Positions 12,585 through 51,526 of a stretch of 51,613 nt of DNA are shown piece after piece. How positions within the stretch are numbered: the first letter of the stretch is position 1; each line of letters starts with the position of its first letter. The notes under the pieces were generated by a model. The model did not search any database. It was given only the letters and a program-made list of their open reading frames with translations, and had not been told where the DNA came from. The position numbers were made by a program, and so were the translations under genes. The stretch spans positions 1-51,613 of the forward strand of contig JAJXWJ010000018.1 in assembly GCA_021781655.1 (NCBI GenBank). Direction: 5' to 3'. Origin of the DNA: Bacillota bacterium (GTDB lineage: Bacteria; Bacillota; Clostridia; Clostridiales; Clostridiaceae).

Positions 12585-12587
12585 TTT

Positions 12588-13133
12588 TTATTTCCCCTCT
12601 GAGGTGCAATTTAAATAATTTAATAAGTCGTTGTAATTTTTTTCAGCAATAGCATCTTTTCCTTTTGAAGCTTCTATTTTTTTGCCATTCTTCTTCATAT
12701 TTTCTTTATAATTTTTAAGAGCTTTAATTATTACTTCTTGAAAAAAAGGAATAGTATTAATTATTCTTTTAATTCCATAGCAATATTCATCATCGCTTAA
12801 GCTAAAGCATTTAAAAAGTCCTGAGGTTAGTCTTCCATCTGAAAACATGAAAATATATCTATCGTTCATTTCGTCGGATAAATCAACTTCTATCTTATGT
12901 TTATATAGTCGAAATACTACGTTATCCCTCGTAACAAATATGGGGAATATGCAAGAAAATATAGAAGGCATATTTTCTTCTTCTATTTCTGAAAAATCAT
13001 TCTCATTTAATTGTTCAATAATTTCTTCTGTAAAAATACTATCTTTTATTTTTTTTGCAAGCTTTTGTTTTAATTTTTGTTCCTTTTCTTCTTCCATTAA
13101 ATTATCTAAGGAAACAAATAGTCCTTTAAACAT
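12588..13133 (-). CDS. Unknown protein in the lrgAB operon
   Basis: This is a 181-aa hydrophilic protein I do not recognise. Residues 12-55 are highly charged and probably helical (EEEKEQKLKQKLAKKIKD). The middle (about 65-110) looks like a small beta-rich domain (FVTRDNVVFRLYKHKIEVDL). The C-terminal third is again lysine-rich and helical. There is no signal peptide, membrane segment or catalytic motif. It lies 12 bp after lrgB and three bp before the regulator gene, with a clear GGGGG ribosome site, so it is part of the operon. It could be a cytoplasmic partner of the transporter or of the regulator; neither is shown. Confidence 0.6.
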   Translation of the reverse strand: MFKGLFVSLDNLMEEEKEQKLKQKLAKKIKDSIFTEEIIEQLNENDFSEIEEENMPSIFSCIFPIFVTRDNVVFRLYKHKIEVDLSDEMNDRYIFMFSDGRLTSGLFKCFSLSDDEYCYGIKRIINTIPFFQEVIIKALKNYKENMKKNGKKIEASKGKDAIAEKNYNDLLNYLNCTSEGK

Positions 13134-13145
13134 GGCAAATACCCC

Positions 13146-13844
13146 CTAAAATTTTAAAAATATTGCCCAAAGTAAAGGTGCAATAAGAACTGTAATTATA
13201 CCAGAAATAGCAATAGTTAAGCTACTCATAGCACCTTCAATTTCCCCTATTTCCATAGCCTTTGCTGTTCCCACGGCATGACAGGAAGCTCCCATTGCAA
13301 TTCCCATGGCTACTTTATCTTCTAGTTTTAATAACTTACTTAAAAATGGGCCTGTAATTGAACCTAAAATTCCTGTAATTACGATAGCAAAAACAGTGAC
13401 AGAAGGAATACCTCCAAGTTGGCTTGAAAGAGCCATACCTATAGGAGTTGTAATTGATTTAGGAATTAATGATTTTGTTAGTACATCTGAAAGACCAAAT
13501 AATTTTGATAATATAATTATACACACAATTCCAGATGTTGCGCCACAAAATATTCCCAATAGTATTGGCAAAGCATTTTTTCTAAAAAGAGCAAACTTTT
13601 TATATAAAGGTAATGCAAGAGCAATAGTAGCTGGAGCTAGAAAGAAAGAAATAACTTGTCCTCCTATATTATAGTCAGTATATTTAATGCTAAATTTAGA
13701 TAAAAACACTATAATTATAATAGTTGCTATAAGTAGCGGATTAAAAATTGAAAGCTTTAGTTTTTGTTTTATAAACGAGCCTATTTCATAAGCAATTAGT
13801 GAAATTAAAACTCCAAACAGGGGAGAAGTGATTATATCGTTCAT
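13146..13844 (-). CDS. lrgB: LrgB/CidB-family membrane protein
   Basis: This is a 232-aa, multi-helix membrane protein with the LrgB hallmarks PLFGVLISL at the start, ITTPIGMALSSQLGGIPS in the middle, and GIAMGASCHAVGTAKAMEIGE near the end. LrgB works with LrgA; the pair was first described as holin/antiholin-like and in Bacillus as a pyruvate transporter (PftAB). I place the start at the ATG at 13844, because its ATGA overlaps the lrgA stop and an AAAGG ribosome site is suitably spaced; an upstream in-frame GTG at 13853 lies too close to that site. The FadR-type regulator in the same operon makes a carboxylate transport role attractive. Confidence 0.93.
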   Translation of the reverse strand: MNDIITSPLFGVLISLIAYEIGSFIKQKLKLSIFNPLLIATIIIIVFLSKFSIKYTDYNIGGQVISFFLAPATIALALPLYKKFALFRKNALPILLGIFCGATSGIVCIIILSKLFGLSDVLTKSLIPKSITTPIGMALSSQLGGIPSVTVFAIVITGILGSITGPFLSKLLKLEDKVAMGIAMGASCHAVGTAKAMEIGEIEGAMSSLTIAISGIITVLIAPLLWAIFLKF

Positions 13845-16358: not shown

Positions 16359-17351
16359 ATGGGAAACTTTTTTTCACTTGTATCAATTGAAAATACAAAG
16401 CTTTGGAAGAGGCTTTCTACAAAAGTGATGTTTTGCTTATTGATATTAATTATAGTTTTGACGGCGGGAGTTATGAAATATTATTATGTAAGTAATAAAG
16501 TAGCAACTACTACTACGGTTTCTGCTAGTTGGAAACAAGATTTACAAAAAAAACTTACAGCTGAGAAATTGCAGCTTAAACAAATTAATAACTCTGGAAG
16601 CAAGGTTGAAAAAGCAGAGAGTGGCTCCTTAGAAAAGTCCATAGCAGAAGATGAATATAGCATAAATAATAACATTAAGCCTAAAAGCGAAAGCAATATA
16701 TGGTCAAGTATAGCTGAGATGGAGAGCAATGTAGGCTACGGTGAGATTATTGCACTATTTTTATTAATATCCTGTTCTGCATTAGTAGCAGGAGAGTTTT
16801 CAGAAGGTACTATGAAAATGATTATTTCAAGACCTTATAAGCGATATGAAATTTTAACGGCAAAGCTAGTAGCTACATTAATATATGGTTTTGAACTTTT
16901 AGTTTCCTCTTTTGTCGTAACCTTTATTGTCGTTGGGGTTCTATTTGGTTTTACAAATATGAGTGCTAAAGAAATGTTTTGGAATGGAAGCAGTATAAGT
17001 TATATGTCGTCATTATTAAAAACATTAATTATTTTTGGACTGGAGTTTCTTAGAATAATATTTTATGTACTTGTAGCGTTTGCATTATCAGCTGCCTTTA
17101 GGTCTCGTTCTTTAGCAACAGGCTTCTCTTTATTTATTTTTTTAGTTGGAGGAGGAATAGTGAGAATACTAGCAATGTACTTTGCTTGGGGTAAATACTT
17201 GCCTTTTGGAAGAGATAATTTTGCATATCTTGTTACAAATGGCTCGCCTATTCAAGGAGTAACGCTATTATCAGCAATGGTATTAACTGCAATATATGCT
17301 CTTGTCTTTGCGTTTATTGGATACTTTGTGTTCCAGAAAAGAGATATATAA
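16359..17351 (+). CDS. ABC-2 type permease
   Basis: This is a 330-aa membrane subunit with about six transmembrane helices. The first is near residues 20-40, and a large lysine/serine-rich extracellular loop (about 45-120) is followed by five further helices. LVAGEFSEGTMKMIISRPYKR is the conserved ABC-2 permease segment before helix 3. I place the start at the ATG at 16359 behind GGGGAGGGG; an earlier in-frame start inside the ATPase gene would add an unlikely 14 residues. The last residues FQKRDI are the usual end of this family. It is cotranscribed with the ATPase and followed by a strong terminator. Confidence 0.9.
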   Translation: MGNFFSLVSIENTKLWKRLSTKVMFCLLILIIVLTAGVMKYYYVSNKVATTTTVSASWKQDLQKKLTAEKLQLKQINNSGSKVEKAESGSLEKSIAEDEYSINNNIKPKSESNIWSSIAEMESNVGYGEIIALFLLISCSALVAGEFSEGTMKMIISRPYKRYEILTAKLVATLIYGFELLVSSFVVTFIVVGVLFGFTNMSAKEMFWNGSSISYMSSLLKTLIIFGLEFLRIIFYVLVAFALSAAFRSRSLATGFSLFIFLVGGGIVRILAMYFAWGKYLPFGRDNFAYLVTNGSPIQGVTLLSAMVLTAIYALVFAFIGYFVFQKRDI

Positions 17352-17400
17352 AACATTAGGCTATCAGACTAACTATTTAGTTTGGTAGCCTAATGTTTTT
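17351..17400 (+). terminator. Terminator of the ABC transporter operon
   Basis: AAACATTAGGCTA and TAGCCTAATGTTT form a 13-pair stem closed by a loop that itself contains an AACTA/TAGTT inner stem, followed by a T-run. It starts at the last base of the permease stop codon. Confidence 0.9.
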
Positions 17401-17421
17401 ACTAGCTACATTAAATAGCCT

Positions 17422-17450
17422 TTGCTTTTTACAAAAAAAAGTAGTATAAA
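17422..17450 (+). promoter_or_regulatory. Candidate promoter of the Ter operon
   Basis: TTGCTT (17422-17427) and TATAAA (17445-17450) are 17 bp apart, about 107 bp before the first gene of the Ter operon. No other match of this quality is seen in the gap from 17401 to 17557, and no SigB- or SigM-like sequence was evident. Confidence 0.45.
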
Positions 17451-17557
17451 ATATTTATATGAGAAAAATTACATAATAAAAAGGAAAATAAGATTTTTTA
17501 AAGAATATATGAAGGTATAATAAGCACGTAATATTAGTCGGAGGTGCTAACATTAAA

Positions 17558-20068
17558 ATGGACAATACTAACAATGGCTTAAGCGGATTTTCATTAAGTG
17601 ATTTTACAATAAATAAAGATAATGAAGACTTTTATAGTGCAATAAAAAACAAAAATACTTTTTTAATGCAATGCAAAAATCCATTAGAAGATATTACCCT
17701 TACTATTGCAGAAAGAAAAAATACAGCTTCAAATGATAAAGTTCCAATAGTAGGCTATCTTTATAGTGGCTTTGATGAAAAAATAAATTATTTAAATACT
17801 TTGGAAAAGCTGCATAATAAATTTTTAGAGCTCAGTAATTTATATTTATGTTTTCAAAATGGAATACCTATTTTAGCTGACGAAGAAATAACTAAAGAAG
17901 TTTCTAAGCTACTTATAGGAACGAACTCTAATGTTGACTCAAATTTAATAGCAATTGTAACAAATAAAAGTGAACTGTACAATATTACAAATAAAAAGGA
18001 TATAAACTTATCTATTAAGGAAGCTTTTACTTTAATTATAAATAAATATGTAAAAAATGAAGTAGGAGTTAATACAAGTAAATTTAAAAATTTTGTTATA
18101 AAAATTCTTTCTTGGTGCAAGGAATATATAAAACAAATATATATAAGTGAAATATCAGACTATAATCCAAAATGCATTTATTATGGAAGCATAAAAAAGC
18201 ATGAAAGTTATTTTATAATGCTTTTAAATATGGTTGGTGCAGATATTTTAATAGTGGAGCCTTCTGGGCAGTCTGAATGGAGAAACATAGATAAAGATGG
18301 CAAACTGTTAGCTATATTTGAAGGAAAGTTTAAAGAAAATATAAAGGAAAATCCTTTTGGAAAAGCAAAACAAGAAGCAGCAACTACAGCTGTTAAGGAG
18401 GAAAAGGCTCCCCCAAAAATATTAGTAAACTCTCAAGGAATGCTTGCAATTAATTTAAAAAGATCACTTGATATTTTTAAGGATATAAAACTTAAGGTTA
18501 CTGACAGGGGAGGACTAATAGAAGGAAAAAGTCCTATAGTTCCAATATATTTTTATAGATATATAGGAATGGAGCAAAGTGAATTCACAGAGATTGAATA
18601 TAATAATAAAATTTATTTGTTAGATAAAGAATTAGAAGGTAGTGGTTGTAATTATTTAAAATTCACAGGCCTTATTGAACCGCCTAAAAATGAAGAAGTT
18701 CAACAAATTGCTAATGGAATCTCAAATATATTTGACAAGCTAAAAACTTTAGATTTGAATATTATATTTAATGATGTGATAAATTACAAGCTTTTACCGC
18801 AATATTATAATAAAAGTGTTAATAATAGTATACAATTTGCATTTAGAGAAATGTTTACAATTTATTCAAAAAAAGAAAATACAAATTTAACAAAAGCAAA
18901 AAACTTTCTTGCTAAACTTGTTGTATGGATTAATAGATATTCCAAAACTTTACTGAAAAATATTCCTCAAGATGGATTTCTAATTTATAATCCTAAAATA
19001 TTATATTTTGGTGAAATTAAAAGTGCTGAAGTGTATTTATTAATATTTTTTTCACTTATAGGATGTGACGTTTTATATATTAATAGCGATTATAACGGAG
19101 ATGACATATTTCGTAGTATAGATAGTAATGAAACTTATACTATGGTGCAAAAAAATGATATTAACGCTAACTTAGGTTACTTTCCACAGGAAGAGAAGCT
19201 AGTTAGAAAAGCCACGGTAGCATATGAAGCATCAGGAAAGGTAGAGGAGCTTTTATTTACTCCAGATTCAGGTATCTACAAGCCTTGGCAATTTGAAAGT
19301 TATAATGCACTTCCAATCACTTTGAAGACAACCTTTGAGGAAATAGCAATACTTTGGGAAGAAGAGGCTAGAGTAAGACCAGATTTTAAAATAGCTAATA
19401 ACACCGTATATGTACCAAATATTTTTGCAAAAATAAATGGGACTCATGAAGATTTAGAAAGATATTGGGAGTTTACTGCTAGGCTTAGAAATTCAGCTAA
19501 TACAGTATTTATTGATAAGATACCTTTTTCAACACTAAATTACACGAGAGAAGAAATGTTTTCTTTAGCGTATGTTCTAAATAAAGATGGATATGTAGAT
19601 AAAGAAAAAATAATGACAACTAGCTTTTATAAATATTCTTATTTAAGAAAGAGTACTCAAAATTTGATTATTGAAAAAATAAATGAACTTATAAAATGTG
19701 ATTTTTTTATAAATGCAGTAGACAATAAGTTCAAATTAAAAATTATTTTTACTGCTTTAAACTTAAATGAAAATATAATTAAGCTAGTGCAAAATTTTGA
19801 TTTTCCATTTAATATTCCAAAGGTTGTGATATATGCAAATGATAGAACAGAATTTAGTGAAGAAGATATAATAACAATATTATTATTAAATCTTCTTTGT
19901 ATGGATGTTATTATTTTAACGCCTACAGGTTACAATAATATTGAAAATAGTATAAAAGCTTATGCCTTTGATACACATAATCTTCCAACTTATAAATTAG
20001 ATCTTACCTTTAAAAGTGGAGCTGTAAAAAAAGAAGTTAAGTCGATTTTTTCAAAAATATTTAAATAG
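17558..20068 (+). CDS. YceG-like protein of the Ter stress operon
   Basis: This is an 836-aa cytoplasmic protein resembling Bacillus YceG, a component of Ter-linked stress operons with no known activity. Three related segments can be seen. Two start with NPK(C/I)(I/L)Y(Y/F)G.IK..E.Y (near residues 205 and 480) and run into a hydrophobic strand plus a (G)(A/C)D(I/V)L motif. A more diverged third is near residue 745 (PKVVIYANDRTEFSEEDI). This suggests an internally repeated Rossmann-like architecture. A low-complexity alanine/lysine linker lies near residues 265-290. It begins the operon and is 19 bp upstream of the TelA gene, the same pairing as yceG-yceH in Bacillus. Confidence 0.8.
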   Translation: MDNTNNGLSGFSLSDFTINKDNEDFYSAIKNKNTFLMQCKNPLEDITLTIAERKNTASNDKVPIVGYLYSGFDEKINYLNTLEKLHNKFLELSNLYLCFQNGIPILADEEITKEVSKLLIGTNSNVDSNLIAIVTNKSELYNITNKKDINLSIKEAFTLIINKYVKNEVGVNTSKFKNFVIKILSWCKEYIKQIYISEISDYNPKCIYYGSIKKHESYFIMLLNMVGADILIVEPSGQSEWRNIDKDGKLLAIFEGKFKENIKENPFGKAKQEAATTAVKEEKAPPKILVNSQGMLAINLKRSLDIFKDIKLKVTDRGGLIEGKSPIVPIYFYRYIGMEQSEFTEIEYNNKIYLLDKELEGSGCNYLKFTGLIEPPKNEEVQQIANGISNIFDKLKTLDLNIIFNDVINYKLLPQYYNKSVNNSIQFAFREMFTIYSKKENTNLTKAKNFLAKLVVWINRYSKTLLKNIPQDGFLIYNPKILYFGEIKSAEVYLLIFFSLIGCDVLYINSDYNGDDIFRSIDSNETYTMVQKNDINANLGYFPQEEKLVRKATVAYEASGKVEELLFTPDSGIYKPWQFESYNALPITLKTTFEEIAILWEEEARVRPDFKIANNTVYVPNIFAKINGTHEDLERYWEFTARLRNSANTVFIDKIPFSTLNYTREEMFSLAYVLNKDGYVDKEKIMTTSFYKYSYLRKSTQNLIIEKINELIKCDFFINAVDNKFKLKIIFTALNLNENIIKLVQNFDFPFNIPKVVIYANDRTEFSEEDIITILLLNLLCMDVIILTPTGYNNIENSIKAYAFDTHNLPTYKLDLTFKSGAVKKEVKSIFSKIFK

Positions 20069-40758: not shown

Positions 40759-40903
40759 AGAGCACCTCCTAAAACAAATATGGTAATATATGTATATGAA
40801 TTATAACATATAAATATATGTATGTGCAAAAAATATTGGGGTAACCACCATAAATTCAGTTAATATAATAGTAGGAGAACAATGAAATTTTGAGGTGTTT
40901 TTT

Positions 40904-41218
40904 TTGCTATATGCACTAGTGCTTGCAGGTGGAAAGGGAACAAGGTTATATCCTTTATCTCGTGAAAATAATCCAAAACAATTTTTAAATATAGTTAATA
41001 ATAAAAGCTTTTTAAAAAATACCATAGATAGAATAAAGCCTATTGTTATGAGCGATAACATATATGTCGTAACAAATGAAATATACAAAAATAAGATTGT
41101 AGAGGAGCTTTTAGATATAAAGCAGGAAAATATATATGTAGAGCCTATGAATAAAGAAACTGCTTTATGGAGTACAAAGGTTTTACAAACAAATAAGTTT
41201 AATTTTTCGGTTTATTGA
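40904..41218 (+). pseudogene. manC: Mannose-1-phosphate guanylyltransferase, 5' part, interrupted
   Basis: The first 87 codons (40904-41164) encode the start of a GDP-mannose pyrophosphorylase: LYALVLAGGKGTRLYPLSR, with the nucleotide-binding GGKGTR loop, through EPMNKETA. The frame then runs into foreign DNA and stops at 41216-41218. The rest of the gene (from ETA-TCIGLSA onward) resumes at 50326. I choose the TTG at 40904 because GAGGTG lies six bases upstream; a GTG at 40895 would sit on that site. The enzyme makes GDP-mannose from mannose-1-phosphate and GTP for polysaccharide or glycoprotein mannosylation. As it stands it would be a non-functional 105-residue product. Confidence 0.88.
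41158..41164 (+). repeat. Left attachment site core (attL)
   Basis: AACTGCT at the point where manC similarity stops; the same heptamer occurs at 50325-50331. In both sites the likely crossover dinucleotide is AC (41159-41160). The left flank, AAAGA, is manC sequence and the right flank, TTATGG, is element sequence. Confidence 0.75.
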
Positions 41219-41277
41219 AAAAATTTCTTTTTCAAAGTATAATTTTTACATAACTTAATTGAAATGAGGGACGTTTT

Positions 41278-42435
41278 TTGCTATATGGATTAATAAAGTT
41301 TAAGAAAAAAGAAATACAAGCTATTTGTATTATTTTAATAACTTCTATTATAGGTATTGCTATTAGGGAAAGAGTTATAAATTTTGTTAGTTCAGATTTT
41401 ACAATATATTTAGAACGTTGGTATGATTTTATATTTAACAATGGAAAGATATTAGCTTTGAAATATAATTTTGCAGATTATACTATGCCCTATATTTATT
41501 TATTAACCTTAGGTACCTACATAAAAATTTCAGCTTTAAAATATATAAAGCTCGTATCTATAATTTTTGATTTTGTAGCGGCAATAATCGCAATTTTTAT
41601 TGTTAAAAAGAAATATCCAAATAAAATAACAGCATATTTTGCCTATCCTTTAATTATTTTATTGCCAACAGTAATTTTAAACGGTGCTTTATGGGCACAG
41701 TGTGACATAATATTTACAGCTTTTATGTTAATAGCTATTTATTTTATAATGAATGAAAAATACTCACTAGCTGTATTGTTTTTTGCTATAGCCTTTACCT
41801 TTAAATTGCAGACTATTTTTATTTCACCTTTATTTTTAGTGCTATTATTAAAAAAGAAGATTAAATTAAGGAATACATTTATTGTTCCTGCTGTATATTT
41901 TATTTTTATGATACCTGCCTTAATTGAAGGAAGAGGATTGTTAAGCTTACTAACTATATATTTAGATCAGTCTAAAGAAAAGAGTGAATTAACCTTAAAT
42001 TTGCCTAATATATATTTCATGGTACCAGATGATTCCAATGTAAAACTGCTTACTTATGTTGGAATTTTATTAGCGGTTTTATTAGTATTAGCAGTTGTTT
42101 TTATTCAGGTTAAATATGTTAAAGAGCTTACAAATGAAAAAATAATTGAACTTTCTTTAATATTCACCATTGTAATTCCTTTTTTGTTACCTAGAATGCA
42201 TGAAAGGTATTATTTTACTGCAGATGTTATTTCAGTTTTGTACGCTTTCTATTTTCCTAAAAGGTTTTTTGTGCCGATTATTATTCAAACTGCATCTGTA
42301 CTAGCCTATGTAATGTTTTTGTTTAATATGGAAGTTATTCCTTTGCCTTTTGTTGCGTTAACTGTTTTTGCTGATATCTTATTTATTTTCTATATGTATA
42401 TACAATCAACTACCACGAAATCACCTAATATTTAA
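41278..42435 (+). CDS. GT-C type membrane glycosyltransferase
   Basis: This is a 385-aa protein with about ten hydrophobic helices. The first extracytoplasmic region has SDFTIYLERWYDF, where the acidic residue after TM1 is the usual catalytic acid of GT-C enzymes. NGALWAQCDIIFTAF (near residue 137) and LPRMHERYYFTADV (near residue 302) are hallmarks of polyprenyl-phosphate-sugar-dependent mannosyl-type transferases. It should add a sugar from a lipid-linked donor on the outer face of the membrane. It starts at TTG behind GAGGGA. Its start region resembles that of manC. It is the first gene inside the element and lies 43 bp upstream of a second membrane transferase gene. Confidence 0.78.
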   Translation: MLYGLIKFKKKEIQAICIILITSIIGIAIRERVINFVSSDFTIYLERWYDFIFNNGKILALKYNFADYTMPYIYLLTLGTYIKISALKYIKLVSIIFDFVAAIIAIFIVKKKYPNKITAYFAYPLIILLPTVILNGALWAQCDIIFTAFMLIAIYFIMNEKYSLAVLFFAIAFTFKLQTIFISPLFLVLLLKKKIKLRNTFIVPAVYFIFMIPALIEGRGLLSLLTIYLDQSKEKSELTLNLPNIYFMVPDDSNVKLLTYVGILLAVLLVLAVVFIQVKYVKELTNEKIIELSLIFTIVIPFLLPRMHERYYFTADVISVLYAFYFPKRFFVPIIIQTASVLAYVMFLFNMEVIPLPFVALTVFADILFIFYMYIQSTTTKSPNI

Positions 42436-42477
42436 CTTCATAATAGCTACAATTACGTTAAGGGGAATTGAATACTT

Positions 42478-44115
42478 ATGGAAATATTAAATTATGTTTT
42501 TATTTTTATTACGTTTGTTATTTGTATTTTAGCCATTTTAAAGGTTTATAAAGGGAAGAAAAATGAAAATGAATTGCATTTTGATATTTTAGAAAAGCAC
42601 CATATAAAGCTAGTAAGTGTTATAATTTTAATTGGCTTTATAATAAGAATAATATATTTATCTACCAATCCACCAGGACTAAACCAAGACGAAGCTTCTA
42701 TAGGATATGATGCTTATTCTATCTTAAATTATGGCATAGACAGAAACAATTTTCATAATCCACTTTATCTCGTATCTTGGGGCAGTGGTCAAAATGCTTT
42801 ATATTTATATTTGTTAGTGCCTTTTATAAAAATATTTGGACTAAGTACTGAAATATTAAGATTACCACAAGCAATTTGTGGAACTATGTCACTAATTGTA
42901 TTTTATCTGTTAATTAAAGAACTTTGGAATAAAAATATAGCATTAATTGCACTTATTTTGCTTACTATTAGTCCGTGGCATATAATGATAAGTAGATGGG
43001 CTCTTGAGTCCAATCTTCTACCAGCTTTTTTATTATTCAGTACATATATGCTTGTTTTATCCTTTAAAAATTCAAAAATATTTTTGATATCCATGTTTTT
43101 TTTTGGAATATCTTTATATGCCTATGCACTTTCCTATATAGTTGTTCCAATATATTTATGGATTATATTAATATATGCTCTTTACTATAAAAAAATAAAA
43201 TTAAAGTACTTTACAGGAGGAATAATAATACTTATCCTTCTAACAATGCCGTTGTTTCTCCTGATTTTAATTAATAAGGGAATGATTAAACAAATAATCA
43301 CACCTTTTTTTTCTATTCCTTTAATGGAGGGGTATAGAGGTTCAGAAATAGATATAAAAAGTATAATACCAAATTTAAAAACATTTTTACATATTTTAAT
43401 TACTCAGTCAGATGGACTTGTATGGAATTCAATAAAAGATTATGGGGTTTTTTATTTATTCAGCACACCGTTCATTTTAATTGGAATTGGAAGTTCTATT
43501 GTAATTGCAATTAAAAAAAGAAAGGATAAGCAGTTTAATAATGAGTTGGTATTTTTATCGTGGCTTGTTGCTTCAATAATCATGATTTCATTAACAAATA
43601 CAAATATTAATAGAGAAAATTCAATATTTATTCCTCTAATATATTTTTGTAGTCTAGGAATATGGTTTGTGGTTAAAAATATAAAAAAAGCATTATTTAT
43701 AGTATTTATTATGTATTTAATTTCATTTGTTAGTTTTACTTCTTATTATTTTATGTATTATCCAAAGGAAATGAGCACTGTTTTTTTTCAGTCCTTTGAT
43801 GAGGCAATTAGTTATGCTTGTAATGAGACAAAAGGAACTATCACTATAACGAATGATGTCAATATGCCGTATATTTACGTTTTGTTTACAGAAAAAATTC
43901 CTGTGAGGCAATTTATTTCTACTGTGTTATATGAAAATCCAACGGCGGAATATAGAGTGCCATTAAAGTTTGGAAGGTTTATTTTTGGATATAACGATAT
44001 ATATATATCTAAAAGTCAAGTTTATGTTATAAATAATTCCGATATAGCCTTGTTTGTAAGAAGCGGCTTTAAAATAAAAAGTTTTAAAAATTTCAGTGTA
44101 GCATATTTCAATTAG
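42478..44115 (+). CDS. PMT/ArnT-like (GT39-type) membrane glycosyltransferase
   Basis: This is a 545-aa protein with about 11-12 hydrophobic helices and a C-terminal soluble tail (about residues 440-545). The catalytic first loop carries NPPGLNQDEASIGYDAY (near residue 65), the D-E motif of dolichyl-phosphate-mannose protein mannosyltransferases and ArnT. LLTISPWHIMISRWALESN (near residue 160) is the second conserved block of this group. It uses a polyprenyl-phosphate sugar and transfers it to protein or glycan outside the membrane. It follows the first transferase gene with AAGGGGAAT as ribosome site. Two lipid-sugar transferases inside a broken GDP-mannose gene suggest a shared surface-glycan theme; the acceptor is unknown. 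Confidence 0.85.
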   Translation: MEILNYVFIFITFVICILAILKVYKGKKNENELHFDILEKHHIKLVSVIILIGFIIRIIYLSTNPPGLNQDEASIGYDAYSILNYGIDRNNFHNPLYLVSWGSGQNALYLYLLVPFIKIFGLSTEILRLPQAICGTMSLIVFYLLIKELWNKNIALIALILLTISPWHIMISRWALESNLLPAFLLFSTYMLVLSFKNSKIFLISMFFFGISLYAYALSYIVVPIYLWIILIYALYYKKIKLKYFTGGIIILILLTMPLFLLILINKGMIKQIITPFFSIPLMEGYRGSEIDIKSIIPNLKTFLHILITQSDGLVWNSIKDYGVFYLFSTPFILIGIGSSIVIAIKKRKDKQFNNELVFLSWLVASIIMISLTNTNINRENSIFIPLIYFCSLGIWFVVKNIKKALFIVFIMYLISFVSFTSYYFMYYPKEMSTVFFQSFDEAISYACNETKGTITITNDVNMPYIYVLFTEKIPVRQFISTVLYENPTAEYRVPLKFGRFIFGYNDIYISKSQVYVINNSDIALFVRSGFKIKSFKNFSVAYFN

Positions 44116-44254
44116 TTTAAAGGAAAAAGCTATGTAAATATTAAGGTTGTACAGGGTAAGATGAGTAGGATAATTAATTTTTTGAAATCTGAAGGCTATG
44201 GTGTTATAATGCCAAGTATAATGTATATTTATTTTGATATGAAGGGATGTTATT

Positions 44255-44464
44255 ATGGGAGCAAAAAGTAAAAAAAAGAGAAAACCAAACATTAAACAAG
44301 CTACGAATAATTTAGAAAAAGTTGAAGTTAAAACGGCTGAAAATACTACAAAGAAGGAAATTAAGGTTTTAGGAAAGGACAGTAACATACATCCGTTATG
44401 GTATGTTGCATGCTTTGTTTTTCTAGTTGTTGCAATTTATGCCTATAATCATGTGAATCACTAG
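44255..44464 (+). CDS. Small single-helix membrane protein, unknown
   Basis: This 69-aa protein has a very basic N terminus (MGAKSKKKRKPNIKQ), a charged middle, and one hydrophobic helix near the C terminus (WYVACFVFLVVAIYAYNHV). It is therefore probably anchored with its long N-terminal part in the cytoplasm. An AGGGATG ribosome site precedes the ATG. The stretch from 44116 to 44254 upstream holds nothing convincing. It ends 18 bp before a 38-bp palindrome that probably terminates its transcript. I recognise no family. Confidence 0.5.
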   Translation: MGAKSKKKRKPNIKQATNNLEKVEVKTAENTTKKEIKVLGKDSNIHPLWYVACFVFLVVAIYAYNHVNH

Positions 44465-44482
44465 TATTAAAGCATTTTGTTA

Positions 44483-44520
44483 TAGCACAATATAGTTGAC
44501 TAATCAACTATATTGTGCTA
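44483..44520. promoter_or_regulatory. 38-bp palindrome: MarR-type operator and/or terminator
   Basis: TAGCACAATATAGTTGA and its exact complement flank CTAA, giving a perfect 17-bp stem followed by TTTTATTTT. It is a good terminator for the small membrane gene. The central TAGTTGA-CTAA-TCAACTA also fits the palindromes bound by MarR regulators, and the MarR gene starts 28 bp downstream. Operator function is inferred. Confidence 0.6.
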
Positions 44521-44548
44521 TTTTATTTTTATGGGAGATGAATAATTT

Positions 44549-45010
44549 ATGGACTACAATGTTAATAACATAATAAAACTTACTAACAGCATATATAGAT
44601 GTAATCAAGCTTTTATAGATGAGAAATTTCAAAAGTATGGCCTTACAGCAGGTTCTTATTCCTATTTAATGGTATTAAATAAAAAGCCAGGTATTAGCCA
44701 AAATGAAATAAGCAAGGAGCTCAGTGTAGATAAAGCTATGTCTGCAAGAACAATAAAAAAGTTAATTGAACTTGGTTACGTTGAAAAAATAGAAAATGAA
44801 AATGATGTTAGATGTTTTAAGCTTTATATTACGGAGAATGGTAAAAAAATAGTTCCAGATATAAAAAAAGTTATTGACGATTGGATTGAAATTTTACTTA
44901 AAGGGAATAGTAAAGAAAATGTTGAAAAAGGGATACAGTTTTTAAAATCAGTACTGAACAACGGAAATTCATGGAGAAAGACACAAGGTGAAGAGGTGAA
45001 CAAGGTTTGA
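44549..45010 (+). CDS. MarR-family transcriptional regulator
   Basis: This is a 153-aa winged-helix protein. The DNA-binding core is about residues 30-100: PGISQNEISKELSVDKAMSARTIKKL is the recognition helix region and ENENDVRCFKLYITENGKK the wing. MarR proteins dimerise and release DNA when bound to phenolic or drug-like ligands. Its stop overlaps the start of the efflux gene by four bases (TTGA), so the two are translationally coupled. The 38-bp palindrome just upstream is a candidate operator. A GGGAGATG ribosome site precedes the ATG. Confidence 0.9.
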   Translation: MDYNVNNIIKLTNSIYRCNQAFIDEKFQKYGLTAGSYSYLMVLNKKPGISQNEISKELSVDKAMSARTIKKLIELGYVEKIENENDVRCFKLYITENGKKIVPDIKKVIDDWIEILLKGNSKENVEKGIQFLKSVLNNGNSWRKTQGEEVNKV

Positions 45011-46461
45011 AAAACGAAGAAAACAAGGTTTATAAAAACAGATGGATTATGCTTTATATTTTACTAGTAGCAACCTTCATGTCAACATTAGACAGTAGCA
45101 TAGTAAATGTAGCGTTGCCAGATATGGCACAAAAGCTTAATGTAAGCATGGCGGCAATAGAATGGGTTGTTACAAGCTTTCTAATTACCATTGCAGCTTT
45201 CATATTGATATTTGGAAGACTGGGAGATATAAAAGGAAAGATAAAGATTTTTAAGTTTGGAGTAGTGCTTTTTACTTTAGGCTCATTTTTATGTGGTTTT
45301 ACTAATTCTTTATTAGTCTTAGTTTTAGCTAGAGTTTTGCAGGCTATAGGGGCAGCTGCTACAATGGCAACGAATCAAGGGATTGTTACTCAAGTTTTCC
45401 CTGCTAAAGAAAGAGGAAGAGCTCTTGGAGTAATCGGAACCTTCGTTGCATTAGGAGCAATGGCAGGCCCACCTTTAGGAGGCTTTATAGTATCTATAGC
45501 AAGTTGGAAATATATATTTTTAGTGAATGTGCCAATCGGGATAATAGTTTCTATTTTAATGGTTAAGATATTTCCAAAGATAGATTCAGTTAATGATGAA
45601 AAGCTAGATGGAAAAGGGGCATTACTATTTACTGTTTCTATTGTTTTACTATTTGGAGCTATCGTGCAAGGACAAAATACAGGATATAACAACATATATA
45701 TGATAGCAGCCTTTGTTATATCTATTATAGCTTTTATTGCATTTATATATGTTGAAAAAAGGACAGAGATGCCGCTACTTCAATTGAAAATATTTAATAA
45801 CAGTCTTTTTTCAATTAGCATAGTATGTGCACTTACATCCTTTATAGCAATCAGTGCTTCCAATATAATATTGCCCTTTTACTTTGAAGATGCTTTAAAA
45901 ATGCCGCCTGCACAAGCAGGACTATTTATGATGATATCTCCAGTAACGTTAGCCATAGTAGCACCTATAAGCGGGTACTTATCGGATAAAATAGGCTCAG
46001 AGCTATTAACATTAATAGGGCTTATACTTACGACGATAGGACTTTCACTAATATCTACTTTAACAGAAAAATCAATTTTTGCAGTGCTTGCACTTTTTCT
46101 TGTAATAATGACTCTTGGAAACGGAATATTTCAATCTCCCAATAATTCATTAGTTATGTCTACAGTATCTCGTGATAAGCTTGGTATAGCAGGAAGTGTA
46201 AATTCACTTATTAGAAATTTAGGAATGGTTATAGGTACATCTTTTGCAACACTTATTTTATATGATAGAATGAGTTCTAAGATGGGCTATAGAGTAGTAA
46301 ACTATGTTAATGGAAGACCAGATGTATTTATTTACGGAATGAGCTTTGTATATATTTTGGCAGCAGTAATATGTGGAATAGGAGCAGTTATAACAGCAAT
46401 AAGGTTATTTGGCAGCAAAAAAAAACAAGTTTCTAAATCTTTAGAAAATAATATAAGTTAA
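45007..46461 (+). CDS. DHA2-family (14-helix) drug efflux transporter
   Basis: This is a 484-aa major facilitator protein of the EmrB/QacA type with fourteen hydrophobic helices. Helix 1 carries TLDSSIVNVALPDMA (the D1 motif). GRLGDIKGKIKIF is motif A after helix 2, and GAMAGPPLGGFIV in helix 5 is the antiporter motif C. It should expel toxic organic compounds by proton antiport. The start is a TTG overlapping the marR stop codon. A hairpin terminator follows 10 bp after the stop. It is cargo of the manC-interrupting element and is probably de-repressed when MarR binds its ligand. Confidence 0.92.
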   Translation: MKNEENKVYKNRWIMLYILLVATFMSTLDSSIVNVALPDMAQKLNVSMAAIEWVVTSFLITIAAFILIFGRLGDIKGKIKIFKFGVVLFTLGSFLCGFTNSLLVLVLARVLQAIGAAATMATNQGIVTQVFPAKERGRALGVIGTFVALGAMAGPPLGGFIVSIASWKYIFLVNVPIGIIVSILMVKIFPKIDSVNDEKLDGKGALLFTVSIVLLFGAIVQGQNTGYNNIYMIAAFVISIIAFIAFIYVEKRTEMPLLQLKIFNNSLFSISIVCALTSFIAISASNIILPFYFEDALKMPPAQAGLFMMISPVTLAIVAPISGYLSDKIGSELLTLIGLILTTIGLSLISTLTEKSIFAVLALFLVIMTLGNGIFQSPNNSLVMSTVSRDKLGIAGSVNSLIRNLGMVIGTSFATLILYDRMSSKMGYRVVNYVNGRPDVFIYGMSFVYILAAVICGIGAVITAIRLFGSKKKQVSKSLENNIS

Positions 46462-46471
46462 AATTTATATA

Positions 46472-46511
46472 ATAAAAAATAAAATTGCTTTGCAATTTTA
46501 TTTTTTTATTA
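46472..46511 (+). terminator. Terminator of the marR-efflux operon
   Basis: AATAAAAAATAAAATTGC pairs with GCAATTTTATTTTTTTATT over a TTT loop with one bulge; the descending strand supplies the T-run. Confidence 0.8.
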
Positions 46512-46518
46512 TAAAGTT

Positions 46519-46620
46519 TTAAGTCCCCCAATTTGTCCCAGTATCTTCCTCAGAACGGATAACGCTTCCCGCCTTCAAACTAACGAGTAAGTGTAAATAA
46601 GTTAAAATGTGCTTTGAATT
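46519..46620 (-). pseudogene. Short minus-strand coding remnant
   Basis: On the minus strand, a stretch with much higher GC than its surroundings is open for about 33 codons and ends SVIRSEEDTGTNWGT before TAA at 46521-46519. It has no ribosome site or credible start. It looks like the 3' end of a lost gene, perhaps from an earlier mobile element, but the family is not recognised. It could instead be a non-coding recombination site, since it lies about 90 bp upstream of the recombinase operon. Confidence 0.3.
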
Positions 46621-46707
46621 TTATACCGATGTAAGGTTTCCTATTTAAGGAATAAAAAAAATTTTCATTATTAGAATATTAATAAAGATATTTAGGGGGA
46701 AATCTTA

Positions 46708-46884
46708 TTGAAGAAAGAATTAAAGTTTAATGTGTTTTATGGTACAGAAGATTTTGCAAAATTATTTGATAACTTAATAGAAGATAAAATAAAAAATGTA
46801 GCAGAAAATGTTGATAACATTGTTTATAATTTAAGTGATAAATGTTATTCATCCTCCACAAAAGAGGTGGATATAGATGAATAA
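46708..46884 (+). CDS. 58-aa protein translationally coupled to the serine recombinase
   Basis: A TTG start follows a strong TTTAGGGGGA ribosome site. The 58-residue product (LKKELKFNVFYGTEDFAKLF..., ending STKEVDIDE) is acidic and probably helical. Its stop codon overlaps the recombinase start by eight bases, so the two are coupled. No family is recognised. Small proteins encoded beside large serine recombinases can be excision factors, so this is the best candidate in the window for a recombination directionality factor. That role is an inference from position. Confidence 0.6.
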   Translation: MKKELKFNVFYGTEDFAKLFDNLIEDKIKNVAENVDNIVYNLSDKCYSSSTKEVDIDE

Positions 46885-48433
46885 AGTATGGAATATAGGA
46901 ATTTACGCCAGAGTAAGTACAGAAAAATCTGGACAAAGTGAATCCATTGCTACACAAATTGGAAATTTAAAAAAATGGATAAGAGACGCTGCCAATGAAG
47001 ATAAAGATAATATATATAATCTTATAAATATTTATAAGGATAATGGTATATCTGGCGCTAGTTTCAATAGAGATGAGTTTAAGAAATTGAAAGAAGATAT
47101 AGAGAATAAAGTAATAAATATGGTTTTAACAAGAGATTTATCTAGATTTTCAAGGGATTATTTAGAAGCGGGAATATATATAGAGAAATATTTCAAATTA
47201 AATAATATTAGATTTGTAGCAATGCTAGACAATGTGGATTCGGAAAAAAAAGAAGATGATGATTTAATACCTTTCAAAAATATGATAAATGAAATGTATA
47301 TTAAAGATACAAGCAGAAAAATAAAAAGTGCATTACGAGAAAGAATGCAAAGAGGCTCATCCATTGCAGCTAAGCCTCCTTATGGCTATAAATATGAAAA
47401 AATTTACAATGGAGAACAAAAAACAAATGTCTTAGTTCCTGAAGGCGGAGAGACTACAGAAACAGTTAAAAAAATTTTTTTATTGTATTTAAAAGGCTGG
47501 GGAGCTGGCAGAATAGCAACATATTTAAATAAAAAAGGTATAGCAACTCCTTCTTCTAGAATAAAAAATTATGCCTTAGCTAAGTTTGGATTTTGGACAA
47601 ATAATACAATATATTCTATATTGCAAAATCATAAATATGCTGGATATTTAGTACAACAAAAATATAAAAAAGTTAGTTATAAAATGAAGAAAGTCAAAAG
47701 AACCTCAAAAGATGAATGGGTTTGGTCTGGAGAATTTGAGGGAATAATAGATAAGAATACTTTTAGCAGAGTCCAAGAAATAATTAAGAATAGATCAAAT
47801 GGTTACAGGTACAAGGGAAAAGTTATACATCTATTTAGCTCTGTGCTAAAATGTGGAACATGTGGAGGGAGCCTATCATATAGAAAAAAATATGAAGGAT
47901 ATAAGTGTACTTTGTCTCAGAATGGTGCAAAAAGATGTACTTGTCATAGCATAAAAGAAAAAGATTTAATTTTAAAAATACAGCAAGATATAAAAACATT
48001 GATAGATAAAAGAATAAATAAAGAGAAATATTATAATAAAATAGAAAATATGAAAATTAAAAAAGGTGATACAAAAGAATTAATGGAAATAGAAAAAGAA
48101 TTGAAAAAATTAGACAAGCGATTTACTAAGGTATATGAAGATAAACATGATAAATTGATTTCAGATAGAAACTTTATAAATTTTATTAATATAATACAAG
48201 AAAAACAAGAGAAGTTAACGAGGAGAAAAGCCCAATTAGAAAATATAATAAAGGCTCCAGAAGATAACCTTAATATTGTGAGCATATATAAAGAAGAATT
48301 GGACAAATTTTTTAATTTAGAAGAAATAGAAAGAAACTTTGTAGAAACAATAATAGATAAAATAATAATTAATGAAGATCCTAAAACAAAGGAAAAAAGT
48401 GTAGATATATACTATAAATTTAATATTAATTAA
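46877..48433 (+). CDS. Large serine recombinase
   Basis: This 518-aa site-specific recombinase has the full large-serine layout. The N-terminal resolvase domain carries YARVSTE (catalytic serine near residue 14), NGISGASFNRDEF near 57, and TRDLSRFSRDYLEAG near 85. The recombinase domain carries PPYGYKYEK near 168 and GIATPSSR. A zinc ribbon follows (KCGTCGGSL...YKC...C.C), then a long basic coiled coil near the C terminus (about residues 395-460). Such enzymes integrate and, with a partner protein, excise DNA between short att sites, as in phage phiC31, the sigK skin element and Tn4451. It overlaps the 58-aa gene and is the obvious catalyst of the insertion in manC. Confidence 0.95.
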   Translation: MNKVWNIGIYARVSTEKSGQSESIATQIGNLKKWIRDAANEDKDNIYNLINIYKDNGISGASFNRDEFKKLKEDIENKVINMVLTRDLSRFSRDYLEAGIYIEKYFKLNNIRFVAMLDNVDSEKKEDDDLIPFKNMINEMYIKDTSRKIKSALRERMQRGSSIAAKPPYGYKYEKIYNGEQKTNVLVPEGGETTETVKKIFLLYLKGWGAGRIATYLNKKGIATPSSRIKNYALAKFGFWTNNTIYSILQNHKYAGYLVQQKYKKVSYKMKKVKRTSKDEWVWSGEFEGIIDKNTFSRVQEIIKNRSNGYRYKGKVIHLFSSVLKCGTCGGSLSYRKKYEGYKCTLSQNGAKRCTCHSIKEKDLILKIQQDIKTLIDKRINKEKYYNKIENMKIKKGDTKELMEIEKELKKLDKRFTKVYEDKHDKLISDRNFINFINIIQEKQEKLTRRKAQLENIIKAPEDNLNIVSIYKEELDKFFNLEEIERNFVETIIDKIIINEDPKTKEKSVDIYYKFNIN

Positions 48434-48465
48434 AATCAACAAGAGGGAATATTGTAATAATGTCA

Positions 48466-48503
48466 ATTATTATACCAATTTATTTTAAAATAGGTATAAT
48501 AAT
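48466..48503. other. Inverted repeat between recombinase and ATPase genes
   Basis: ATTATTATACC and GGTATAATAAT are an exact 11-bp inverted repeat with a 16-base AT-rich spacer. There is no T-run after it, so it is a poor terminator; a regulator-binding site or a weak stem-loop is possible. It lies 33 bp after the recombinase stop. Confidence 0.4.
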
Positions 48504-48602
48504 AATATGAAATAATTTTTAGACGTATGTTTAAAATTAGCAGATAATAGAGCTGTTTTTATTTAAAACTTTAAAAGTTTATTTTTTGAAAGAGGTGAGA
48601 AG

Positions 48603-50300
48603 GTGTTAAGGAAGATACCATATGGGGAATCAGATTTTAAAAAAATAATAAAAGAAAATTATATTTTTGTTGATAAAAGCAAATATATAGAAGTCTTAGA
48701 AAGTGATGCATCATATCAATTTTTTATAAGACCAAGAAGATTTGGTAAAAGTCTTTTTTTATCAATGCTCAGCAACTATTATGATATTAATAATAAAGAT
48801 AAATTTCAAGAATTATTTGGAGACTTATATATAGGAAAAAATCCTACACTGAAAAAAACTTCTTATTTTGTTTTAAGATTAGATTTTTCTAATATTTCAA
48901 CTAATCAACAAAAAGAAAATTTGATAAAAAGTTTTGATGTAAAAGTTATAGCAGCAGTAAATGATTTTTTGATTAGATATAAAGAATTATTGAGCAATGA
49001 AAAAATGGAAAATAATTTTAACGATGCTATAAGTGCAATTAGTCAATTGTCCTTAAAATTAGCAAACTCAAATAATAAAATATTGGTTTTAATTGATGAA
49101 TACGATAATTTTGCCAATGATTTAATAACTTCTAATGAAAAGTTATATTACGATGTAATTTCAAGTCAAGGCTATATAAGAACCTTTTATAAAAATTTGA
49201 AATCATTGACTAGTACAATTATTGATAGAATATTTATGACAGGAGTTAGTCCTATTTTATTAGACGATTTAACTAGCGGATTTAATATAACAAAAAATTT
49301 AACGCTAGATAAGCGTTATAATCAAATGCTTGGTTTTACAGAGGAAGAATTGAGATTATTAATAGGTGAAATTCAAATTAATAATTTTAATAAAGAAATT
49401 CTAATTACTGATATGAAGCAGTATTATAATGGGTATTTGTTTTGTGAAGAATGCGATACTCGTGTATTTAATCCTAATATGGTTTTATATTTTTTAGATA
49501 ATCTAATAAAAAATAAGAAGTATCCTAAAAATATGCTAGATTTAAATATAAAAACAGATTATAAAAAATTAGAAAGTCTTGCTTTTAATTTTAAAGATGA
49601 AGAAACAATAGAAAGTATTTTAGCAAATGAAGAAGTTGAAATAGACTTAGTTGAACGATTTAATTTAGAATTTATGTATGAAAATAAAGAAAACTTTATA
49701 TCTTTATTATTCTATATGGGTATGCTTACAGTTAAAGAATCATTTCTAGGGAATATTACTCTTAAAGTTCCTAACATAGCCATGAAGGAAATATATTGGG
49801 AATATTTTAGAAGAAAGCTATCTGAAAATAGTAATTTACACATAGAAAATGTGAAAGTAAATAAAGCAATAAAGGAAATGGCTATAGATGGGAAATGTGA
49901 TTTGTTCATTGGATACTTAGAAGAATTTCTACACAATATTTCCAATAGGGATTTAATAAAATTTGATGAAAAATATATAAAAGTTATATTACTATCTATA
50001 TTTATGAGCAATGTATATATTTCAAATAGTGAATATGAAGTTGAAGAAGGATATATAGATGTATTGCTTACTAAAAATAAAGCCTTTGAAGATAGTATTA
50101 AATATGAATGGATAATAGAGTTAAAGTATATAAAGGAAAAGGATAGGAATAACTTAGAAGAAATTAGAATTCAAGGTCTGAAACAATTAGATAGGTATTC
50201 CAGTAGCAAAAAACTAACTTCTTCATATGATTTAAATTATATGAAAAAGTTATTAATTATTGTGATTGAAAAAAAAGAAGTTGAATGGCACTTAGAATAA
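48603..50300 (+). CDS. AAA-ATPase-like protein with C-terminal PD-(D/E)XK nuclease domain
   Basis: This is a 565-aa member of a family common in anaerobes. The N-terminal KIPYGESDFKKIIKENYIFVDKS block precedes the phosphate loop RPRRFGKSLFLSML (near residue 48) and a Walker B LVLIDEYDNFAND (near residue 161). The C-terminal 80 residues carry a nuclease core, GYIDVLL...EWIIELKYIK, with the D and E-x-K catalytic residues (PDDEXK_9 type). The function is unproven; such proteins are often in several copies and next to mobile DNA, possibly in defence or element maintenance. A GTG start follows GAGAAGG. It is the last element gene, ending 24 bp before the right attachment site. Confidence 0.88.
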   Translation: MLRKIPYGESDFKKIIKENYIFVDKSKYIEVLESDASYQFFIRPRRFGKSLFLSMLSNYYDINNKDKFQELFGDLYIGKNPTLKKTSYFVLRLDFSNISTNQQKENLIKSFDVKVIAAVNDFLIRYKELLSNEKMENNFNDAISAISQLSLKLANSNNKILVLIDEYDNFANDLITSNEKLYYDVISSQGYIRTFYKNLKSLTSTIIDRIFMTGVSPILLDDLTSGFNITKNLTLDKRYNQMLGFTEEELRLLIGEIQINNFNKEILITDMKQYYNGYLFCEECDTRVFNPNMVLYFLDNLIKNKKYPKNMLDLNIKTDYKKLESLAFNFKDEETIESILANEEVEIDLVERFNLEFMYENKENFISLLFYMGMLTVKESFLGNITLKVPNIAMKEIYWEYFRRKLSENSNLHIENVKVNKAIKEMAIDGKCDLFIGYLEEFLHNISNRDLIKFDEKYIKVILLSIFMSNVYISNSEYEVEEGYIDVLLTKNKAFEDSIKYEWIIELKYIKEKDRNNLEEIRIQGLKQLDRYSSSKKLTSSYDLNYMKKLLIIVIEKKEVEWHLE

Positions 50301-50324
50301 AAAGATCGATTACGTCAGTGTAGC

Positions 50325-50331
50325 AACTGCT
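50325..50331 (+). repeat. Right attachment site core (attR)
   Basis: AACTGCT, identical to 41158-41164. Here it is within AGCA-AC-TGCT, a perfect palindrome around the AC dinucleotide (50326-50327). To its right manC sequence resumes (ACATGTATAGG). Confidence 0.75.
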
Positions 50332-51138
50332 ACATGTATAGGTCTTTCTGCAATAAAGCTTTTAAAAAAAGATAATGATGCAACGATGATAGTACTTCCC
50401 TCTGACCATTATGTAGAAGGAGAACAAGAATTTATTAATACTATAAATGAGGCAGTGGAAGTAGCATCAAAGAAAAGAGGTCTAGTAACCATAGGCATAA
50501 CACCAACTAGGGCGGAAACGGGATATGGATATATACAAACAGGAGAAAAAATAGCTATTGGAGAAAATAATTATAGAGTAGAAAGATTTCTTGAAAAGCC
50601 AAACGTTGAAGTAGTTAGAGATTTGCTATCTTTAGGAAATTATGTATGGAACAGTGGCATATTTGTATGGAGGGCCGATTCATATTTAAGAGAAATGGAA
50701 AAATATCTACCCAAAATGTACAAAAGTTTATCTACCATTTATCAAAATCTAGAAACAGACGAAGAAGAAAAAATAATACGAGAACAATACGAGCAAATAG
50801 AAGGAATCTCTGTAGATTTTGGAATACTTCAAAAGACAAGAAAAGGATACGTAGTAAAATCAAATTTTATTTGGGATGATATCGGGAATTTCATATCCCT
50901 TGCCAGATTTCTAGAAAAAAAAGGAGCTAACCTAATAAGAGGAGAAGCCTTCTTAGAACAAAGTGAAAACTGTTATGTATTTGGAAAAGATAAGCTTCTA
51001 ATCGGCTTCGGCATAAAAGATCTAATAATAGTTGACTCAGGAGACATTTTGTTAATAATGGACAAAAACAAAGATCAAGAAATAAAATCCCTAGTAGACT
51101 CAATAAAATACACCCCCCACCTAAAAGAATATATGTAA
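50326..51138 (+). pseudogene. manC: Mannose-1-phosphate guanylyltransferase, 3' part
   Basis: From ACT-GCT-ACA onward the frame encodes T-A-TCIGLSAIKLL and then the remaining family motifs: VLPSDHYVEG, TPTRAETGYGYI, VERFLEKPN, NYVWNSGIFVW, SVDFGILQKT and WDDIGNF. The first methionine (50386) lies inside the PSDH motif, so this part cannot make a functional enzyme by itself. All active-site motifs that should be in this part are intact, with no stop or frameshift, which argues that the gene is under selection or was interrupted recently. Reunited with the 5' part it would give about 355 residues, the usual length of the short guanylyltransferases. Confidence 0.9.
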
Positions 51139-51145
51139 ACATACT

Positions 51146-51446
51146 AGGGGTTTGGGCGTGCCCATGTATCCTCATGAACAAAAATTAATCACTAACTAAA
51201 GAGGGGGACGAATACTAAAATTCACTACAAAGAAAAGGCTAGGGGTTTGGGCGTGCCCATGTATCCTCATGAACAAAAATTAATCACTAACTAAAGAGGG
51301 GGACGAATACTAAAATTCACTACAAAGAAAAGGCTAGGGGTTTGGGCGTGCCCATGTATCCTCATGAACAAAAATTAATCACTAACTAAAGAGGGGGACG
51401 AATACTAAAATTCACTACAAAGAAAAGGCTAGGGGTTTGGGCGTGA
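51146..51446 (+). repeat. Three identical 95-bp tandem repeats plus a partial fourth
   Basis: Units at 51146-51240, 51241-51335 and 51336-51430 are identical base for base; a fourth begins at 51431 and departs within about 16 bases, with an extra A. Each starts AGGGGTTTGGGCGTGCCCAT, contains GAACAAAAATTAATCACTAA and GAGGGGGACGAATACT, and ends in AAAGAAAAGGCT. The unit is non-coding beyond an 11-codon frame. The first unit lies eight bases after the manC stop. The leading core also follows the malic enzyme gene (39025-39060). This accounts for most of the gene-free stretch after 51138. Confidence 0.92.
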
Positions 51447-51526
51447 CCCATAGCCATCAAGCCAATAATACCAATTATTGTAAATGATTAAACTTTCATA
51501 AATACACTATGAAGTGGTAAAAAAAT

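Follow-up and report, generated by a model that had tools for sequence, protein, structure and literature searches.

A manC gene split by a large serine recombinase element in Clostridiaceae, probably an intervening element of sporulation

The split manC gene and its element

The stretch of DNA analysed here (the window) comprises 51,613 nucleotides of contig JAJXWJ010000018.1 from a Clostridiaceae bacterium (assembly GCA_021781655.1), and contains a manC gene, which encodes a sugar-nucleotide enzyme with GDP-mannose as product and is interrupted by an element with its own large serine recombinase (LSR). The gene lies in two parts on the + strand, 40904–41160 and 50328–51138, with an insert of ~9.17 kb between them. 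The 5′ part extends from a TTG start to the crossover dinucleotide AC in codon 86 and matches the Pfam family NTP_transferase, and the 3′ part resumes with the third base of codon 86 and runs to the stop codon, matching NTP_transferase and ManC_GMP_beta-helix. Two copies of AACTGCT are read in the sequence, at 41158–41164 and 50325–50331, and joining the gene at these copies produces an uninterrupted ManC of 355 residues in one open frame of 355 codons (...VEPMNKETATCIGLSAIK...), which bears out the original prediction of a single frame of about that length. The shared crossover can be refined to AC (41159–41160 and 50326–50327). A lone 7-bp repeat could be due to chance; the same-codon break in 34 other genomes of the family raises AACTGCT above chance. 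Removal of the element would leave one intact manC, and the element has half-sites with the AC in common, its own LSR, and a small open reading frame (ORF) upstream of the LSR.

The LSR (46877–48433, + strand), also foreseen in the original prediction, has 518 residues and the Pfam domains Resolvase, Recombinase, and Zn_ribbon_recom. In its catalytic domain, Y10–S14 and the stretch TRDLSRF are invariant in 14 aligned sequences including that of the window, and relatives of this LSR are found only at manC. The recombinase is incomplete in some members of the family, with a stop in the match of genome G067 and shorter proteins of 415–428 residues in G086, G100, and G112. A scan of the genome contigs gave two relatives, one of them at 27% identity. 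The start of the LSR gene is overlapped by an ORF of 58 residues (46708–46884, + strand). Its counterparts, of 48–79 residues, overlap the LSR start or end at most 17 nucleotides from it in 31/32 elements, the only element devoid of one being that of G044, near a contig end. Most of these ORFs contain a Y-G-x-E-D-F-like motif. Fifteen of the sequences were aligned; none of the 15 has a Pfam match, the window's own has no NCBIfam match, and two marginal PHROG matches occur, each in a single member. From its place and size, we propose that the small ORF may encode a recombination directionality factor.

Integration of a temperate phage at manC appears not to describe the element, since no close phage recombinase was found and Pfam names no phage structural genes in the window's element. 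Phage records contain no LSR match of at least 60% identity (25–32% among the matches listed, 20 of 400), and the same is true of plasmid records (25–32% among the matches listed, 20 of 273).

The remaining genes of the window's element are all on the + strand. A membrane glycosyltransferase-like protein (41278–42435), with a weak Alg6_Alg8 match under the Pfam cut-off, is followed by a PMT_2/PMT (GT39-like) glycosyltransferase identified by Pfam (42478–44115), an ORF of 69 residues with no Pfam or NCBIfam match (44255–44464), a MarR-family regulator (44549–45010; Pfam), and a DHA2/EmrB-type exporter of the major facilitator superfamily (45007–46461; Pfam and NCBIfam). An AAA-ATPase_like/PDDEXK_9 protein (AAA-ATPase/PD-(D/E)XK; Pfam) occupies the interval between the LSR and attR (48603–50300). 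PMT/GT39-like enzymes often use lipid-linked mannose derived from GDP-mannose; such an enzyme is encoded in the cargo at 41278–44115, and GDP-mannose is the product of the interrupted gene. In Clostridium puniceum (G153, contig C142; L102, 2796–3836), a manC paralog 40% identical to that of the window lies between the manC halves, seemingly as element cargo. Immediately 3′ of the window's manC, positions 51144–51451 hold 3.2 copies of a 95-bp tandem unit with 99% matches, for which Rfam gives no match.

Recurrence of the split and its attachment sites

The LSR is present in 32/194 genomes of the family (E ≤ 1e-100), distributed over 17/46 genera, and the 3′ part of manC in 165/194 (E ≤ 1e-70). 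At all 32 fetched LSR loci, the LSR lies upstream of a manC piece that starts at the same codon. A search of 225 genomes across the order gave 33 with the LSR at E ≤ 1e-90, all from this family. Of these, G212 alone was new; its LSR adjoins the manC 3′ half (the 3′ half only was examined), and it is left out of the tabulation, trees, and promoter counts. A pattern scan of IMG/VR found one LSR relative, likewise on a contig with split manC. The LSR clade thus adjoins a same-codon split manC in every family genome in which it was found (32/194, plus G212) and on one metagenome contig. Three further genomes (G130, G149, and G157) are split at the same codon beside recombinases ~27–31% identical to that of the window and with different arm sequences, which brings the totals at codon 86 to 33 genomes carrying this LSR and three carrying others. 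In the search of the 32 LSR genomes, the 5′ half of manC was found in 31, upstream on the same contig and strand in 26 and on another draft contig in five (G015, G067, G111, G145, and G179), and was not found in G044. Both split and intact manC occur within single genera; intact loci were fetched from 64 genomes, a subset of the intact ones. In G130 (L091), two manC 3′ halves (12561–13370 and 17196–18017) follow one 5′ half at a distance of 4.6 kb from each other, which suggests tandem elements.

In the window, the putative attachment site attL (41140–41185) consists of a manC half-site, the crossover AC, and the element arm TGCTTTATGGAGTACAAAGGT, and aligns gaplessly with the attL sites of 30 further members of the LSR clade. 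The corresponding attR (50300–50350), with the element arm GATCGATTACGTCAGTGTAGCA, the AC, and the other manC half-site, aligns in the same way with 31 others. The scores of the window's sites are the sixth lowest of 31 for attL and the fifth lowest of 32 for attR. Wherever both halves are available (34 rows), the AC of codon 86 is common to attL and attR, and no joined frame has an internal stop; 30 of the frames have 356–358 codons with the stop, and four are shorter (208–240 codons in G086, G100, G112, and G148) because of a second break. The consensus element arms are ACCGCTTTATAGACGATATAGGTCAT for attL and AAATGACCTATAACGTCTATAAAGGGAC for attR, and the two arms are in-phase inverted repeats, with a mean identity of 0.70 after reverse complementation (shuffled 0.41, 95th percentile 0.52; G044 omitted from the attL arm analysis). 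Element lengths range from 2,814 bp (G009) to 22,358 bp (G092) among the 22 elements of the LSR clade whose two manC halves fall within a single fetched stretch, and the element of G155 measures ~100 kb by contig coordinates.

Both halves are open frames, so one may ask if they are translated apart into a working protein of two chains that makes excision superfluous. To this possibility we assign practically no weight. In 24/35 rows, the 60 nucleotides that precede the crossover (up to a stop) offer the 3′ half no in-frame start, and the first internal start comes late, 5–21 codons in and mostly at 19, whereas the codons that would be skipped (ATCIGLSA..) are conserved nonetheless. In the window's 3′ half, the first in-frame start is the 20th codon past the crossover, and the unexcised halves therefore cannot yield the whole protein.

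In three genomes (G086, G100, and G112), manC is broken into three colinear pieces, corresponding to about residues 1–86, 87–204, and 205–355. The second gap, near codon 204, contains a different LSR, on the opposite strand and adjoining the last piece (L096 and L175 in G086, L097 and L177 in G112, L176 in G100). The two sides of this gap share AGAGC(A/G)GAT in G086 and G100, and reading across it, by eye, would give WRAD-S-L-LREME. G148 (L089 and L178) and an IMG/VR contig have pieces one and two and then an opposite-strand LSR of this kind, and the stretches read for them gave no last piece; L244 is listed with these second-break loci. On balance we lean towards the view that manC is a recurrently split sporulation gene, in which unrelated serine recombinases have settled at one codon and a further one near codon 204; in some species the gene would then consist of three exons, and two mother-cell excisions would have to precede synthesis of the spore glycan.

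Selection, promoters, and the link to sporulation

Among pairs of split manC genes with >80% identity, 13/17 have a ratio of nonsynonymous to synonymous substitution rates (dN/dS) of 0.049–0.103, examples being G104/G073 (0.074 at dS 0.28), G143/G150 (0.049 at dS 0.57), and G153/G155 (0.059 at dS 1.0). The four pairs with G148 (0.22–0.39) were dropped, its row extending beyond the second break. The median for intact pairs is 0.058 (84 pairs, dS < 2). Root-to-tip distances, computed with rows of 340 residues or fewer excluded, do not differ between 30 split (0.406) and 64 intact copies (0.388; p = 0.79). On these substitution rates, the split manC is under purifying selection as one protein across the family and not a dead insertion, in line with the original proposal. 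The window's manC deviates at 5/135 conserved columns, by conservative changes.

Elements are shared by close relatives (G073/G104; G143/G148/G150), and they also move horizontally, as follows from mismatches between LSR and manC identities: the window's genome (G000) is 0.79 and 0.77 identical to G153 and G155 in the LSR and 0.56 and 0.55 in manC, and the pair G034/G097 has 0.84 in the LSR and 0.71 in manC. Purely vertical inheritance is ruled out by the conflict of the LSR and manC trees at several pairs, and purely recent insertion by the pairs with close elements and appreciable dS. Such mobility would also be expected of selfish LSR elements that attach at a conserved codon of manC, knocking the gene out while inserted and excising only in the service of their own transfer. 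Genera in which both forms of manC coexist, the variable cargo and length, and the manC paralogs in 21/35 split genomes (E ≤ 1e-9) can all be accommodated in this way. A knocked-out gene is expected to decay, yet the pairs G073/G104 and G143/G150 retain the low dN/dS given above, no internal stop occurs in 34 rows, and the rates are those of intact copies. We therefore regard selfish insertion as unlikely.

For the promoters, 150 nucleotides upstream were scanned with the relaxed motif AC-N14-18-CATANNNT and with its strict form CATANNNTA, which we take to represent the sigmaK consensus, and spoIVA, which we presume to be a sigmaE gene, served as control. As a further control we used yabG, a sigmaK gene according to the available text of PMC10747680. 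The relaxed motif is found in 64/64 intact manC, 33/34 split manC, 24/30 yabG, 1/29 spoIVA (one locus, L227, was skipped), and 2/60 other ORFs, and the strict form in 48/64, 22/34, 17/30, 0/29, and 1/60, respectively. Shuffled sequences give means of 4.1 relaxed matches upstream of intact and 2.1 upstream of split manC. Read against these controls, the motif shows that the manC of this family has a predicted sigmaK-type promoter. In the window, a putative promoter recognized by eye (40844–40870, + strand) has AC at 40844–40845, a 16-nucleotide spacer, and AATATAATA at 40862–40870, with one mismatch to the strict form. All nine genomes devoid of spoIVA fall among the 29/194 without a manC match (E ≤ 1e-70; Fisher p = 1.1e-8), and they span four genera and are not nine independent cases. 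Taken together, the promoter motif and the absence of manC where spoIVA is missing make manC look like a sporulation gene, in support of the developmental role that the original prediction had considered possible. The window's genome also contains two terminal yabG pieces with internal stops (G000, C29:5544–5744 and C87:4472–4672) in addition to the full gene on C129, perhaps relics of insertions.

The region before the LSR operon is rich in CATA sites (23/31, against a shuffle mean of 7.9 and maximum of 16). Ribosome-binding-site hairpins with z under −2 occur in 13/31 LSR operons, 12/64 intact manC, 4/34 split manC, 3/30 yabG, and 2/29 spoIVA, and look as if they could limit translation to transcripts started inside the hairpin. 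Long hairpins spanning promoter and ribosome-binding site are seen upstream of manC in G006 and G035 (L126 and L100) and of the LSR operon in G067, G129, G104, G121, and G021.

The original interpretation is thus supported in part, its reversible switch of GDP-mannose production remaining hypothetical. The window's genome has paralogs that are open and ManC-like, three in number, so that GDP-mannose need not be off when manC is split, and the mother cell being terminal, excision there would be irreversible within that cell. Phase variation during growth, where occasional excision and re-insertion would reversibly toggle GDP-mannose and a vegetative surface glycan, could draw on the glycosyltransferase-like cargo and on the ability of LSR elements to re-insert without a directionality factor, as described for skin in the text available from PMC5025042. 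Against it, the promoter motif of manC is of the sigmaK type and not vegetative; moreover, the window's assembly holds no excised copy, and the paralogs could provide GDP-mannose. Phase variation is accordingly a highly improbable account.

We consider it probable that the window's manC serves sporulation and is split by a site-specific intervening element, in the manner of skin, gin, and yin, which is excised in the mother cell. In keeping with this, 13/35 split genomes gave no further N-terminal half of manC at E ≤ 1e-9. During sporulation, the LSR and the small ORF product, acting as directionality factor, would recombine attL with attR in the mother cell, releasing a circle and rebuilding manC about when sigmaK transcribes it. 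The rebuilt ManC could then supply GDP-mannose for a spore-surface glycan, and the forespore would retain the split gene, through which the element is inherited.

Several observations weigh against this reading. The window, where AATATAATA stands at the −10 position, is the single split row of 34 without the relaxed motif; its arm symmetry is the lowest (0.50, below the shuffled 95th percentile of 0.52), and its manC has the longest terminal branch of the split copies. The three further ManC-like genes of its genome are 36–39% identical to the split manC, and an NTP_transferase search of the assembly found just the two halves at this locus and no excised copy, junction, or circle. Because elements move horizontally, the window's insertion is not datable. 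At the family level, 20/185 genomes with spoIVA also have no manC match at E ≤ 1e-70, which in G086, G100, and G112 at least is explained by the double split. Neither form of the sigmaK motif rises clearly above chance before the LSR operon (strict 4/32, shuffle mean 1.5, maximum 5; relaxed 6/32, mean 3.5, maximum 7), and the CATA sites there overlap a hairpin and have no established −35. Given its diverged promoter and arms and the paralogs, the window's copy may be losing a function kept by its relatives. The original prediction had named a second intact manC together with neutral divergence of the split copy as contrary evidence; paralogs are indeed present, and neutral divergence is not seen in the family.

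Comparison with known intervening elements

The manC arrangement fits the known kind of intervening element, with a flanking repeat that restores the frame, a serine recombinase near the predicted attachment sites, and purifying selection in the family, and the interrupted gene is tied to sporulation by its predicted promoter and the spoIVA link, with a deviating −10 in the window itself. The precedents of SPbeta and skin invoked in the original prediction are thus apt. Skin, SPbeta, gin, or yin proper are ruled out, as the target is manC and not sigK, spsM, gerE, or yabG; sigK of the window's genome is uninterrupted. In the open-licence literature on serine recombinases, GDP-mannose/manC, and clostridial sporulation, no manC intervening element was found (by title, a paper on a Parageobacillus phage was among the matches), and neither "mannose" in the available portion of PMC10747680 nor "mannose" and "manC" in that of PMC5553647. 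Transcriptomes of C. acetobutylicum and C. beijerinckii include manC genes, which as merely possible orthologs carry no weight in the present reading. As far as the searched literature reaches, both the target manC and the LSR clade are new.

If the proposed excision is correct, programmed rearrangement in spore formers would no longer be a matter of isolated cases but would recur within a single family, where the target is a sugar-nucleotide enzyme, elements are stripped to little beyond the recombinase, and the gene is cut twice in three genomes. The family would then offer a natural series of related LSR and attachment-site pairs with a candidate directionality factor, and the persistence of elements in sporulation genes could be tested with intact, singly split, and doubly split species.

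SPbeta is an active prophage of the 100-kb class, whereas the manC elements are mostly short and have no phage relative above 60% identity. As for manC, the gene interrupted by SPbeta in Bacillus subtilis, spsM, functions in polysaccharide synthesis, and this LSR element is removed and the gene rebuilt in sporulation (PMC4191935). The skin element of sigK in Clostridioides difficile and B. subtilis combines an LSR with a small directionality factor, for which the small ORF is the candidate in the manC elements, and some strains are element-free; its excision rebuilds a mother-cell gene, as proposed here for manC (PMC5025042). Skin is prophage-like, and the gene for its factor is controlled by sigmaE and SpoIIID and, by locus number, lies apart from the LSR gene, whereas the small ORF of the manC element overlaps the LSR start (PMC5025042).

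In analogy to the window's element, gin in gerE of Bacillus cereus ATCC10987 is free of phage genes, splits a sporulation gene, has a serine recombinase and a short common core (9 bp in gin), and requires an extra factor for excision, a role for which the small ORF is the candidate here (PMC5595907 for gin). With 28.6 kb, three LSRs, and a small regulator gene, gin differs from the manC elements, which have one LSR beside attR and extend down to 2.8 kb, are located in a sugar-nucleotide enzyme gene in Clostridiaceae-type hosts, and have an excision that is predicted from sequence (PMC5595907 for gin). The yin element in yabG of Clostridium botulinum is prophage-like, interrupts a gene of the SigK regulon, and has an LSR beside the split and a proposed small factor, and its excised circle was detected by polymerase chain reaction (PMC10747680). 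Yin was reported in one isolate (PMC10747680), whereas the split of manC recurs in 17 genera, in a different gene and with a different LSR clade.
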